Shown: positions 42,564 through 49,921 of the stretch, in pieces
Position numbering within the stretch: the first letter of the stretch is position 1
Layout of the letters: each line of letters starts with the position of its first letter
Assembly (NCBI RefSeq): GCF_019880245.1
Contig: NZ_CP082286.1
Coordinates: 2,746,521-2,810,520 of the forward strand
From: Halobaculum roseum
GTDB lineage: Archaea; Halobacteriota; Halobacteria; Halobacteriales; Haloferacaceae
Length of the DNA: 64,000 bases
Direction of reading: 5' to 3'
Program-made: the position numbers and the translations under genes
The notes under the pieces: generated by a model
The model's database searches: none
What the model was told of the DNA's origin: nothing
Seen by the model: only the letters and a program-made list of their open reading frames with translations

Positions 42564-42791
42564 ATGACGCGAACTCGAAGTGACGCGCTGTGGATCGCGG
42601 CGTTCGGGCTGCTGGTCGCGTTCGCCGTCCCGTGGTTCCTCTGGGGCGACGCGACGGTCGTCGCGGGGCTGCCGCTGTGGCTGTGGTGGCACGTCGGCTG
42701 GATGGCGCTTGCGAGCGTGGTCTTCGCCGCGTTCGCGCGCGGCGGGGCGTGGGACCGCGGCGTCGACGCGGAGGTGATCCGCCGTGGCTGA
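42564..42791 (+). CDS. DUF3311 membrane protein, symporter partner
   Basis: 75 residues from ATG 42564; an in-frame ATG at 42543 would add seven residues. Two membrane helices with Trp-rich connecting loop: 'LWIAAFGLLVAFAVPWFLWG' and 'LPLWLWWHVGWMALASVVF'. DUF3311 proteins are short companions encoded directly before sodium:solute symporters, probably acting as an accessory subunit. The gene overlaps the symporter start by 8 nt (42784-42791). Confidence 0.85.
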   Translation: MTRTRSDALWIAAFGLLVAFAVPWFLWGDATVVAGLPLWLWWHVGWMALASVVFAAFARGGAWDRGVDAEVIRRG

Positions 42792-44262
42792 TCTGGGCGT
42801 CTCGCTGGGCGTCGTCGTGGGGTATCTGCTGATCGCGCTCGCGATCGGCGTGGTGGCGTACCGGCTCACCGACCGCACGGCCGAGGACTACTACCTCGCG
42901 TCGCGGTCGGTCGGAACGGTCGTGTTGCTGTTCACGACATTCGCGACGCTGCTGTCGGCGTTCACGTTCTTCGGGGGACCGAACCTCGCGTTCTCGGCGG
43001 GACCGGAGTGGATCCTCGTGATGGGGCTGATGGACGGCATCCTGTTCGCGCTGCTGTGGTACGCGATCGGCTACAAGCAGTGGCTCGTCGGGAAGGCCCA
43101 CGGCTACGTGACGCTCGGCGAGATGCTCGGGGACCGCTTCGACTCGACGGCGCTGCGGGGGCTCGTCGCCGGCGTGAGCCTGCTGTGGCTGTTCCCGTAC
43201 GTGATGCTCCAGCAGATCGGCGCCGGGCAGGCGCTCGTGGGGCTGACCGACGGCGTCGTCCCCTACTGGGCCGGCGCGGCGCTGATCACGGTGTTCATGG
43301 TCGCGTACGTCGGCCTCTCGGGCCTGCGCGGCGTCGCCTGGACGGACACGCTCCAGGGCGTGTTCATGCTCGGCGTGATCTGGCTCGCGGTCGCGTGGAT
43401 CGCGACCACCGAGGGCGGCGTCTCGGCGCTGACCGCCGGGATGACCGACTCCGCCCCGGAGTTCGCGGCGCTGGGGGGCGGGCTGTACTCGCCGCAGTGG
43501 ATGATCGCGCAGGCGGTCGTCATCGCCTTCGGCGTCGCGGCGTTCCCGCAGGTGAACCAGCGGTTCTTCATGGCCGACCGCGTCGAGACGCTCAAGCGCT
43601 CGTTCGCGCTGTGGCCGGTGCTGGTCCTCCTGCTGTTCGTTCCGGCGTTCCTGCTCGGGTCGTGGGCGGTCGGGCTCGGGATCGAGGTGCCCGACGGGAG
43701 CAACGTCCTCCCGCTGCTGTTGAACGAGTACACGCCCGCGTGGTTCGCGGCGCTGGTGATCGCCGGCGCGCTCGCGGCGATGATGTCCTCGTCGGACTCG
43801 ATGCTGCTGTCGGGGTCGTCGTACTTCACGCGCGACCTCTACCGGCCGCTCGTCGCCCCGGACGCGAGCGAGGCCCGCGAGGGGTGGGTCGCCCGCGTCG
43901 GCGTCGCCGGCTTCGCGGGGTCGACGTTCCTCGCGTCGCTGCTCGTCGGCGGCGGCGGGGGGCTGGACGTGCTCGTCACGCTCGGGGACACGGCATTCGG
44001 CGGCTACGCTCAGCTCACGATCCCGCTGCTCCTCGCGCTGTACTGGGGCGGGACGACCCGTAACGGGATGATCGCCGGCGTCGTGAGCGCCGAGCTGGTG
44101 TACCTCGCGCACGTGTTCCTTCCGCTGCCGGCGACGTACCTCACGTGGGACTTCGCGCTGTGGTGCATGCTGCTGTCGCTGGTCGTGACGGTCGCGGTGT
44201 CGACGGTGACGGCACCCGCGCCCGCGGCCAACGCCGAGAAGTTCGGCGTCGGCGCCGACTGA
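42784..44262 (+). CDS. Sodium:solute symporter (SSS family)
   Basis: 492 residues from GTG 42784, overlapping DUF3311. About thirteen hydrophobic helices in the LeuT-type SSS fold. Family landmarks are 'RTAEDYYLASRSVG' after helix 1, 'TFATLLSAFTFFGGPNLAF', 'VFMVAYVGLSGLRGVAWTD' and the sodium-site region 'AGALAAMMSSSDSMLLSGSS'. Transport of an organic acid, such as a carboxylate, is typical for DUF3311-linked members, but the substrate is not readable. The inverted repeat upstream suggests regulated expression. Confidence 0.92.
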   Translation: MADLGVSLGVVVGYLLIALAIGVVAYRLTDRTAEDYYLASRSVGTVVLLFTTFATLLSAFTFFGGPNLAFSAGPEWILVMGLMDGILFALLWYAIGYKQWLVGKAHGYVTLGEMLGDRFDSTALRGLVAGVSLLWLFPYVMLQQIGAGQALVGLTDGVVPYWAGAALITVFMVAYVGLSGLRGVAWTDTLQGVFMLGVIWLAVAWIATTEGGVSALTAGMTDSAPEFAALGGGLYSPQWMIAQAVVIAFGVAAFPQVNQRFFMADRVETLKRSFALWPVLVLLLFVPAFLLGSWAVGLGIEVPDGSNVLPLLLNEYTPAWFAALVIAGALAAMMSSSDSMLLSGSSYFTRDLYRPLVAPDASEAREGWVARVGVAGFAGSTFLASLLVGGGGGLDVLVTLGDTAFGGYAQLTIPLLLALYWGGTTRNGMIAGVVSAELVYLAHVFLPLPATYLTWDFALWCMLLSLVVTVAVSTVTAPAPAANAEKFGVGAD

Positions 44263-44308: not shown

Positions 44309-45244
44309 ATGCAGACGCACGTCGTCCCGGTCGGCTTCGACTACGACCGGCTCATCGCGCCGCTGGTTCGCGACCAGTTCGACGTGGACCGGGTCGTCCT
44401 CCTGGAAGGTGCGGTGGGGAGCGAGGCCAACGTCGAGTACTCCCGGAACCTCTCACAGAAGCTGGAGACGGACTTCCGGAACCTGCTGGGCGCGGAGACC
44501 GAGCGCGTCGAGATAGCCGACGTGTACGACTACGACGCCGCCTTCGAGCAGGCGTACGACCTGATCAACACCGAACTCGACGCCGACCGGGAGGTGTGGG
44601 TCAACGTCTCCTCGATGCCCCGCCCCGTCTCGTTCGCGTTCGCGACCGCCGCCCACTCGGTCACGCTGGAGCGGCAGGCCGACCGCGACCGCATCCACAC
44701 TTACTACACGGCCCCCGAGAAGTACCTGGAGACCGAGTTGGCCGAGGAGCTCCGGGCGAACCGCGACCTCCTGGGGGACCTGCTCGACGGCGTCGGCGAC
44801 GACGCGGCGGAGGTCGCCGGCGTCGACGCCGACCGGCTCCGCGAGCGCCTGTCGACGGCGACGGACCTGCTCGCGGAGTTCGACGAGCGCGGGACGACCA
44901 TCGGCGCCAAGGAGGTCGACGGGAAGCACATCATCGAGCTGCCGGTCGCGTCGTTCTCGAACGTGAAGCCCTTCGAGGAGGTGATCCTCTACAAGCTCGG
45001 CGAGGACGGCGAGTTCGAGTCGGTGAGCGAGCTCGCGAAGGCGCTGGCCGCGGAGTTGAACGAGGAGTACACCGACTCGTTCCGCTCGAAGGTGATCTAC
45101 AACGTCGACCGCCTCGGCCCCGGCGGGAAGGGGTACATCGAGCAGGAGTCACACGGGAAGTCCTACCGGACGCGCCTCTCGCGGATCGGGGAGCTGTGGG
45201 TGCGCGCGCACGCCGCGGAGGACGCGACCGACTACGACTGGTGA
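44309..45244 (+). CDS. CARF-like/winged-helix transcriptional regulator (HFX_2341/DUF6293 type)
   Basis: 311 residues. The N-terminal 140 form a Rossmann-like domain: 'HVVPVGFDYDRLIAPLVRDQ', a mid-domain loop, and 'VWVNVSSMPRPVSFAFATAA', which occupies the place of the NxTGGTK-type ligand loop of CARF domains. A linker is followed by a winged helix ('FESVSELAKALAAELNEEYT', 'SKVIYNVDRLGPGGKGYIEQ'). This is the layout of the haloarchaeal HFX_2341 family and of Csa3 regulators that sense cyclic oligonucleotides in CRISPR loci. No CRISPR or cas gene is nearby. ACGCTTTTCC about 30 nt before the ATG is the likely promoter. Confidence 0.82.
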   Translation: MQTHVVPVGFDYDRLIAPLVRDQFDVDRVVLLEGAVGSEANVEYSRNLSQKLETDFRNLLGAETERVEIADVYDYDAAFEQAYDLINTELDADREVWVNVSSMPRPVSFAFATAAHSVTLERQADRDRIHTYYTAPEKYLETELAEELRANRDLLGDLLDGVGDDAAEVAGVDADRLRERLSTATDLLAEFDERGTTIGAKEVDGKHIIELPVASFSNVKPFEEVILYKLGEDGEFESVSELAKALAAELNEEYTDSFRSKVIYNVDRLGPGGKGYIEQESHGKSYRTRLSRIGELWVRAHAAEDATDYDW

Positions 45245-47454: not shown

Positions 47455-48216
47455 TCACCGGGACGAGAGCGCGCCGGCCTCCAGCAGCTTCACCCGCGTC
47501 GCCAGCGCGAGGAACGTCGCCGTGAGCGTGAGGACCACTGCGCCGGCAGCGGCGATCTCGTGGGTCGGCGACGGGTGGGTGAAGCCGACGCCCGACTCGA
47601 GCAGCACCTGCCCGGGCATGAGCGTGTGGTGGGGCGTCCCGGCGACGGGGACGAAGTAGTCGACCACGTCGTTGAGGCCGTACCACGCGACGGCGACGGC
47701 GACCGCGCGCACCGGGAACCCCGAGATCCGGTAGAGGAGGAACCCCTCGACGGTCATCGCGAGGTGCGAGAACAGCAGGAACAGGTACATCGGAAGCGGG
47801 TTGGCGGCCGTGAAGCCGTCGGCGAACGCCAGGAGGACGAACGGCGTCCACAGCCCGAGCTTCCAGCAGCCGAAGAAGGCCAGCGCGTTCACGTACTCGT
47901 TCGACCGCCCCAGCGCCCACAGCCCCAGCGCGAGCGCGATGAACAGCGTCGCCACCGGCGAGTCGGGGACGAAGACCCACATGCTCGGGGGCGTCCCGGC
48001 GAGCTGCCAGGTGATCAGCGGGTCCGACAGCGGCAGCGGGTGGACGCCGTAGTACCAGAAGCCGAAGGCGGTGCCGACGAGGTTGATCGCGACGACGACC
48101 CACGCGATCCGGAGGCCGACGTTCTCGACCGCCCGCGGGAGCGGCGCGACGTACCACGGGAGGTCCGGGCGCTCGGGGAGTCCGTCGTCGTCGGTCAGGT
48201 CGGCGAGGAGGCTCAT
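47455..48216 (-). CDS. DUF1405 membrane protein
   Basis: 253 residues with seven hydrophobic helices. Landmarks 'TAFGFWYYGVHPLPL', 'SMWVFVPDSPVATLF', 'FFGCWKLGLWTPFVLL', 'FSHLAMTVEGFLLY' and 'YGLNDVVDYFVP' are characteristic of the DUF1405 family. Function unknown. The second DUF1405-like gene starts 221 nt away on the other strand, so the two form a divergent paralogous pair. Confidence 0.85.
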   Translation of the reverse strand: MSLLADLTDDDGLPERPDLPWYVAPLPRAVENVGLRIAWVVVAINLVGTAFGFWYYGVHPLPLSDPLITWQLAGTPPSMWVFVPDSPVATLFIALALGLWALGRSNEYVNALAFFGCWKLGLWTPFVLLAFADGFTAANPLPMYLFLLFSHLAMTVEGFLLYRISGFPVRAVAVAVAWYGLNDVVDYFVPVAGTPHHTLMPGQVLLESGVGFTHPSPTHEIAAAGAVVLTLTATFLALATRVKLLEAGALSSR

Positions 48217-48437
48217 TCGGGTGTGGCGTGTGGTGGCGCGTCGCCGGCTTAGCCGTGGCGATGATCGATACGGACCCGACGCACCGGTCGTCGTGGTCCC
48301 CGTCGTCGCCGCCGGCCCTCCGCCGGTCGACCCGTCGCGGACACCCGCCCGTGTCCCGTGAGGTATCGAGGGAGTCTCCCGAGTGGTTCCGAACCACGCG
48401 CCGTTAAGCCGTGGGCGGACGAAGCAGGCGACAACCC

Positions 48438-49148
48438 GTGGCCGACGACACCGCGACCCGAAACCCGCTTCCCGAGTCGCTGGCGGAGTTCTACCTCACG
48501 ACGCCGTTCACGCTGGGGCTGTTGCTGCTCGTCAACGCGCTCGCGTTCCTCGTCGGCGTCCGCTACTACGTCGAGACGATGCCCGCGGTGGCGACGTGGC
48601 TGTGGCCGCTGTACGGCGACTCGCCGACGGCGATCGCGCTCGCCACGCTCGTGCTCGCGGCGCTGGTCCCGTTCGCCGGCCGCCGGCTGTCGTCGGTTCC
48701 CCGAACCACCCTGCTGTCGGTGTTGTCGACGCTCGCGGTCGTCTGGCTGGTCAAGACCGGGCTGTGGACGTTCCTCGCGCTGAACGTGCCGTTCGTCCGG
48801 CCGGATCTCCCCGCCGACCTGTACGTCGGCTTCGACGCCGACTCGCTGTGGGCGTACTGGGGCATCCTCGCCACGCACGCGGCCTTCCTCGCGGAGGCGC
48901 TGTTGATCGCCCGCGTCGGCCGAACGTCGAGGCCGGTGCTTGGCGGCGTCGCGGTCCTCGCGCTCGCGAACGATCTCTTCGATTACGGCTTCCTTCTCGG
49001 GCTCCCGCTGTCGAACCATCCGCCGGTCCGCTATGAGCCCGGCTGGACGCTCGCGCTGGGGAGCCTCGCCGCGACGGTCGTCGCGGTCGCGGTCGCGGCG
49101 ACCGTCCTGCCGTCGATCGACGGCGGGCGTCGCCGACGCGGTGCTTAA
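48438..49148 (+). CDS. DUF1405-like membrane protein, divergent paralogue
   Basis: 236 residues from GTG 48438. Seven helices with motifs aligning to the neighbouring DUF1405 protein: 'GVRYYVETMPAVATWLWPLY' with 'GDSPTAIAL', 'VVWLVKTGLWTFLAL', 'ILATHAAFLAEALLI' and 'LALANDLFDYGF'. The aligned features (a Tyr-Tyr pair, DSP, K-x-G-L-W, H, E, N-D-x-x-D-Y) suggest common ancestry and perhaps shared ligand or metal residues. Its stop codon lies within the TATA box of the next gene. Confidence 0.75.
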   Translation: MADDTATRNPLPESLAEFYLTTPFTLGLLLLVNALAFLVGVRYYVETMPAVATWLWPLYGDSPTAIALATLVLAALVPFAGRRLSSVPRTTLLSVLSTLAVVWLVKTGLWTFLALNVPFVRPDLPADLYVGFDADSLWAYWGILATHAAFLAEALLIARVGRTSRPVLGGVAVLALANDLFDYGFLLGLPLSNHPPVRYEPGWTLALGSLAATVVAVAVAATVLPSIDGGRRRRGA

Positions 49149-49174: not shown

Positions 49175-49921
49175 ATGGACTCCGCGGTGCTGCTTGATCT
49201 CCTGGGAAACGAGAACCGCCGGCGCATCCTCCGGCTGCTCTCGCACAAGCCGTGTTACGTCACCGAGATCAGCGAGTACCTCGGCGTGTCGCCGAAGGCG
49301 GTCATCGACCACCTGCGGAAGCTTGAGGACGCGGGGCTCATCGAGAGCCACACCGACGACCGCCGGCGCAAGTACTTCCACATCGCCCGCGACGTGCGCC
49401 TGGAGGTGAACGTCTCCCGGCACGGCTTCGGCACGAAGTCCGCCTACCCCGCCAACCCGAGCCTCGACATCCAGGGTCGCTGCCCGCACATGCACATCGA
49501 CCTGGAGCTTCGGTCGCTCGAACCGACGGCCGACGGCGACGGCGACGCGGCGACCGTCGACGGCGACGCGGGCACGGGCGACGCCGCCCGAGGCGCCGAC
49601 GACCGCCGGGGGGATCTGGCCCAGTTGGCCGCCGAGTTCGACGAGCTCCAGGACCTCGAAAACGAACTCTCGCTGGCCCAACGGTGGGTCCACGGCCGGA
49701 TGAGCGAGCTGCTCGACCGCGTGAACGACCGCCTCGGCGTCGACGCGGACTCCCGATTCTACGCCAAGTTGCTCGCGGCCGTCACCTCGACCGACGGGAG
49801 CCACCGCGCCGTCGTCGAGGAGGTCGACGCCGACCCGCAGGCCGTCGAGGACGGGCTGCAACGGCTCGCGGACGCGGACCTGCTCGCGCGCGAGTCCGGT
49901 CGCTGGCGGCTCGCAGGCTAG
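49175..49921 (+). CDS. ArsR-type winged-helix regulator with C-terminal domain
   Basis: 248 residues. The N-terminal winged helix is 'LLGNENRRRILRLLSHKPCY', recognition helix 'VSPKAVIDHLRKLEDAGLIE', wing 'HTDDRRRKYFHIA'. A middle segment 'GRCPHMHIDLELRSLEPT' contains Cys and two His close together that could bind metal. After an acidic linker, a helical region (about 140-190) and a second small winged-helix-like domain ('VVEEVDADPQAVEDGLQRLADADLLA') follow. Its target is not evident; it is monocistronic with its own TATA box. Confidence 0.85.
   Translation: MDSAVLLDLLGNENRRRILRLLSHKPCYVTEISEYLGVSPKAVIDHLRKLEDAGLIESHTDDRRRKYFHIARDVRLEVNVSRHGFGTKSAYPANPSLDIQGRCPHMHIDLELRSLEPTADGDGDAATVDGDAGTGDAARGADDRRGDLAQLAAEFDELQDLENELSLAQRWVHGRMSELLDRVNDRLGVDADSRFYAKLLAAVTSTDGSHRAVVEEVDADPQAVEDGLQRLADADLLARESGRWRLAG

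Follow-up and report, generated by a model that had tools for sequence, protein, structure and literature searches.

The regulator gene and its genomic setting

The window, i.e. the whole 64,000-nt stretch of DNA that was analysed, lies on contig C1 of the 3.72-Mb genome of Halobaculum roseum, which is assembled in four contigs. At positions 44309 to 45244 of the forward strand it includes a 311-aa open reading frame, with the same coordinates as in the initial annotation, that encodes an HFX_2341/Crr-family CARF-winged-helix transcriptional regulator. The start is backed by 80 related loci, where the N-termini read M[Q/A/H]TH[I/V/M]VPVGFDY. The nearest named relatives, from Halobaculum gomorrense (L039) and H. 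saliterrae (L040), are each 95% identical in the alignment. The dN/dS ratio was 0.07–0.20 in six comparisons with relatives, and the gene is therefore under purifying selection.

A sodium:solute symporter gene (42784 to 44262, forward strand) ends 47 nt upstream of the regulator gene on the same strand, and co-transcription of the two is possible. Downstream, a gene for a binding-protein-dependent transport permease is convergent with the regulator gene. The window neighbours that Pfam recognises encode transporters, DUF1405 proteins and regulators; one neighbour has no Pfam match. The two DUF1405 genes, at 47455 to 48216 (reverse strand) and 48411 to 49148 (forward strand), are divergent and lie head to head; an ArsR-type helix-turn-helix regulator with a Cmi2 C-terminal domain is encoded at 49175 to 49921 (forward strand).

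Neighbours were compared by clustering across 81 loci (the 80 related loci and the window), using heuristic gene calling that missed the regulator itself in 5 of the 81, and ten proteins were scanned, four from the window and six cluster representatives. Recurrent neighbours among these ten were the sodium symporter, DUF3311, DUF1405, SOR/SNZ (PdxS-like) and Toprim proteins, together with DUF92, class I tRNA synthetase, YqcI_YcgG and GHMP kinase proteins. The genomic settings of the regulator are varied, with recurring housekeeping neighbours. A search for linked cyclase genes across genomes had been suggested in the initial annotation; neither a diadenylate cyclase, another cyclase nor a cas gene was present among the ten neighbour proteins scanned. 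As far as these cas genes are concerned, the remark that no CRISPR lies nearby holds beyond the neighbours, as Cas1, I-B Cas7 (PF05107) and Cas10 were not found by profile search of the whole assembly. PF01905 was dropped as a test for Cas7 because it gave no match in the Haloferax volcanii control; PF05107 was positive there and was used instead.

In the upstream regions of the 80 loci, no palindrome common to them that could represent an autoregulatory site was found (the best dyad occurred in 4 of 80). The TATA-like word TTTATAA was enriched in these regions, being present in 19 of 80 compared with 9 of 1038 controls.

Family assignment and predicted structure

Residues 1–303 of the protein match positions 1–298 of the 299 in NF051475, the NCBIfam equivalog model 'HFX_2341 family transcriptional regulator', at 583 bits, with the curated cut-off being 500 bits. 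The best PADLOC model was CARF3 (521 bits). The Csa3 model, TIGR01884, gave 21.8 bits, below its cut-off of 60.2, and matched only the N-terminal part. Hence, the window gene is the Halobaculum ortholog of HFX_2341/Crr and belongs to a class-wide family related to the Csa3-type CARF-winged-helix regulators. HFX_2341/Crr has been studied in Haloferax mediterranei (PMC11434293), where its likeness to Csa3a in HHpred and the occurrence of homologs in CRISPR-negative species were reported. The two proteins belong to the same equivalog family, are similar in length (308 aa in H. mediterranei) and share their domains and class-wide presence; as far as tested, the window copy differs in its host alone, a genome in which Cas1, I-B Cas7 and Cas10 were not found.

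Three domains can be delimited. The CARF (Rossmann) domain occupies residues 1–139 (44309 to 44725, forward strand) and corresponds to Pfam HFX_2341_N (residues 3–139, 99.2 bits). It is followed on the same strand by a DUF7776 insert (residues 140–217, 44726 to 44959; 107.7 bits), both Pfam scores being above cut-off, and by a winged helix-turn-helix (residues 218–302, 44960 to 45214), in which 23 of the 24 positions from 253 to 276 are invariant among the orthologs; the putative DNA-reading part is thus conserved. In an AlphaFold2 model built with 81 orthologs, a Rossmann domain is joined to a winged helix through the insert, which forms two long helices and a hairpin. Confidence in this model is moderate (mean pLDDT 71.7, pTM 0.47), and residues 102–104 of the pocket loop have pLDDT below 50.

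The best match of the model in a Foldseek search of the PDB was Csa3 (2wte, E 1.2e-5), and Csm6, Cam1 and Can2 were among the other leading matches. In VIA-align, residues 3–137 aligned with cA4-bound Can2 (Z 13.5, rmsd 1.9 over 107 residues) and residues 214–311 with RosR (Z 14.0, rmsd 1.9 over 91 residues). The alignment with Csa3 spans both domains (Z 10.8 over 191 residues); its rmsd of 15.7 suggests a different placement of the domains in the predicted model. A profile of the wider family likewise aligned with both domains of Csa3 at 99.7% probability. The Rossmann-type CARF sensor recognised in the initial annotation is thereby borne out, as its predicted structure superposes on the CARF domains of Csa3, Can2 and Cam1, and so is its fusion to a winged helix as in Csa3. 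When the PDB was searched by sequence, neither the window protein nor the ortholog profile retrieved a CARF chain; the wider-family profile did reach CARF chains, weakly (E 0.007–0.008).

Csa3 (Sso1445; PDB 2WTE, 6WXQ and 6W11), which binds cA4, shares with the window protein the combination of CARF and winged helix, the V-G-F-D of pocket motif 1 and the arginine of motif 2, but it has no DUF7776 insert; unlike Csa3, the window regulator is not linked to cas genes. The CARF fold is also common to the ring nucleases Sis0811 and Sso1393 and the effectors Can2, Cam1 and Csm6, from which the window protein differs in having an arginine for a lysine, in that no nuclease domain was found in it, and in that no Cas10 was found in the survey of its class. 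By architecture it can also be likened to MM_0565 of Methanosarcina mazei, a CARF-winged-helix protein reported to affect many genes and to be stabilised by salt stress, which differs in being linked to a I-B CRISPR locus (PMC7465815). The likeness to RosR (VNG0258H) of Halobacterium salinarum is confined to the winged helix, as the RosR chain of 110–114 residues is too short for an additional CARF domain.

The putative ligand pocket

Two motifs, 1 and 2, have been defined for cA4 binding in Csa3, and each of the mutants F10A, F14A, G96A and R98A is reported to lose cA4 binding (PMC8844856). In the window protein, motif 1 corresponds to VGFDYDR (residues 8–14, 44330 to 44350, forward strand) and motif 2 to VNVSSMPRP (residues 98–106, 44600 to 44626, forward strand). 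The latter loop had been placed at the CARF ligand site in the initial annotation, and the alignments agree: VNVSSMPR falls on VNISGGMR, the motif-2 loop of Csa3, and the wider-family profile sets the loop on INATAGLKP of Sis0811, with R105 over K169 as counted on the printed coordinates. G9, F10 and D11 have the same numbers in Csa3, whereas R14 takes the place of Phe14, M103 that of Gly96 and R105 that of Arg98.

These positions are fixed in the family. In motif 1, V8, G9, F10, D11 and R14 are each present in 81 of 81 orthologs, and M103, P104 and R105 are likewise invariant. A lysine or arginine after strand 4 is a feature of the CARF superfamily (PMC4012209), and R105 provides it in all 81. 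Judged from the aligned residues, the pocket thus retains one adenine-stacking residue (F10) and one phosphate-binding residue (R105), with the two others replaced.

The two replacements do not carry the same weight. Among 18 Csa3 proteins, taken from 24 loci of the phylum, the position of Gly96 is G in 17, that of Arg98 is R or K in all 18, and that of Phe14 is F in 9; Phe14 was conserved in just 6 of 10 in PMC8844856. The loss of Phe14 is therefore weak evidence by itself, and the replacement of Gly96 argues more strongly. Only 6 of 26 sequences of the wider family have G at the Gly96 position; relatives outside the HFX_2341 family have thus lost this glycine as well. M103 may accommodate a ligand in ways invisible to sequence comparison.

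The CARF domain could in principle be a mere dimerisation scaffold within a constitutive global repressor that has no ligand. Such a role would fit the reports that overexpression of HFX_2341 alone increases repression (PMC11434293) and that Csa3a binds DNA in vitro independently of cA4 (PMC8699464). However, the pocket-side loops are more invariant than the remainder of the CARF domain, with 37 of 54 positions compared with 35 of 89 (Fisher p 0.001, with loop boundaries picked from the predicted model; the value is descriptive only, the orthologs being non-independent). Moreover, G9 and N99 are kept in 26 diverse relatives, and D13, R14 and S101 nearly so. A scaffold without ligand is rather unlikely.

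Distribution in the class and candidate ligands

Of the 292 class genomes surveyed, 283 have the regulator, and all 77 genera are represented among these. Seven of the nine genomes without it belong to genus g2 and two to genus g45; the g2 absences may represent one clade and one loss. Cas1 was detected in 102 of the 292 genomes, and the regulator accompanied it in 101 of these and was present in 182 of the 190 others (Fisher p 0.17). Its presence does not track that of Cas1.

The palm2 model of Cas10 (PF22335), which was positive in control archaea, matched none of the 292 class genomes, and none had a Csm1 match (TIGR02578) above the 170-bit cut-off; the Cmr2 model of Cas10 was outside this survey. 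Weak TIGR02578 matches of at most 27.4 bits occurred in 189 of the 292 genomes and, among the matches listed, lay within the start of the model (to position 152). They are presumably due to other HD-domain proteins. Halobacteriales are described as having no type III systems, and in extracts of H. volcanii cA4 was below detection while c-di-AMP was present (PMC8646023). With no enzyme for its synthesis found in the class, and two of the residues required for cA4 lost from the pocket, a Cas10-made cyclic oligoadenylate is not expected to be the ligand. The HFX_2341 family has been described before, as have its CARF character and the conjecture that its messenger is something other than cyclic oligoadenylate; cAMP or c-di-AMP was proposed as the signal (PMC11434293). 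What is added here is a class-wide, residue-level argument against cA4, which was not found in the literature searched; nor was a report of ligand binding by the HFX_2341 family. Its testable core is that, in a class where no Cas10 was found, all aligned orthologs have other residues at two positions that Csa3 needs for binding cA4. The suggestion in the initial annotation of a different nucleotide messenger thus stands in its negative part, and the ligand itself is a candidate only.

Cyclic oligonucleotides might still be sensed if another enzyme makes them, such as a CBASS CD-NTase, and the regulator would then be linked to defence. The genome of the window does carry a type II CBASS operon on contig C2 (L180:2915-7628, about 211.9–216.6 kb of the contig, minus strand) that encodes a CD-NTase of 374 aa, a fused E1-E2-JAB protein of 778 aa and a TIR-SAVED effector of 415 aa, and overexpressed HFX_2341 is reported to repress cas genes in H. 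mediterranei (PMC11434293). However, this operon has a SAVED sensor of its own, the motif-2 glycine is replaced by M103, and a core gene of the whole class would hardly rely on one accessory island, CBASS having been sought in the window's own genome only. Such a defence-linked role is very unlikely.

The regulator is probably a Csa3-derived housekeeping protein with a small ligand made neither by Cas10 nor by CBASS. The probability placed on this is the sum of two parts, one for c-di-AMP and a larger one for other metabolites. Deletion and overexpression indicate that HFX_2341 is a transcriptional repressor, possibly acting indirectly; its deletion in H. mediterranei is viable and, by RNA-seq, chiefly raised expression, with strong effects on transport and metabolism genes in particular (PMC11434293). 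By analogy with homologs, two subunits would pair so that their CARF domains enclose a two-fold pocket, and a ligand bound there would shift the winged helices and thereby alter how far transport and metabolic genes are repressed.

The leading single candidate for this ligand is c-di-AMP, tentatively and at rather low probability, because it is two-fold symmetric, has two adenines and is made by the universal DacZ; c-di-AMP from DacZ could engage the retained pair of Phe10 residues and the pair of Arg105 residues. The diadenylate-cyclase (DAC) domain is present in 292 of 292 class genomes, including the nine without the regulator, and, being universal, it cannot single out c-di-AMP by co-occurrence. 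In addition, dacZ is essential in H. volcanii but the HFX_2341 deletion is viable, and c-di-AMP would therefore have other targets. All 34 genomes of genus g2, the genus with seven of the nine regulator-negative genomes, have two DAC-domain matches.

Alternatively, the CARF pocket may bind another small anionic metabolite, such as Ap4A, pApA, cAMP, a 2',3'-cNMP or a dinucleotide cofactor, in which case the regulator would sense nutrients or stress and have no connection with c-di-AMP. Ap4A, pApA, cAMP, cGMP and 2',3'-cNMPs are reported from H. volcanii (PMC8646023), genes for transport and metabolism are abundant in the HFX_2341 regulon (PMC11434293), and the one aromatic residue and one arginine kept per subunit would suit many nucleotides; specific support is absent for any single one of these compounds. 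Together they fall somewhat short of an even chance, and Ap4A and the other H. volcanii nucleotides are jointly at least as likely as c-di-AMP.

If the ligand is c-di-AMP, a more specific and more doubtful scenario can be drawn, in which a Csa3-like receptor for infection alarms would have been re-tooled early in haloarchaea into the standing transcriptional c-di-AMP receptor of the class. With the glycine of motif 2 and the second phenylalanine for stacking gone, a pocket for the four adenines of cA4 would have shrunk to one for two adenines, and the ancestral defence sensor would now couple c-di-AMP to nutrient transport. A c-di-AMP ligand would give archaea a transcriptional receptor for this messenger and provide an example of a CARF domain that has departed from CRISPR signalling.

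The HFX_2341_N domain extends beyond the class, as 120 of 216 genomes sampled from the phylum have a match at E ≤ 0.001, 37 of the 120 being within the class. Several class genomes encode two to four HFX_2341_N proteins. One of them, G003, has the canonical gene and, on its contig C2, a second family copy (L154:5542-6453, reverse strand) that is 43% identical and has VNISSMPRT as the loop.
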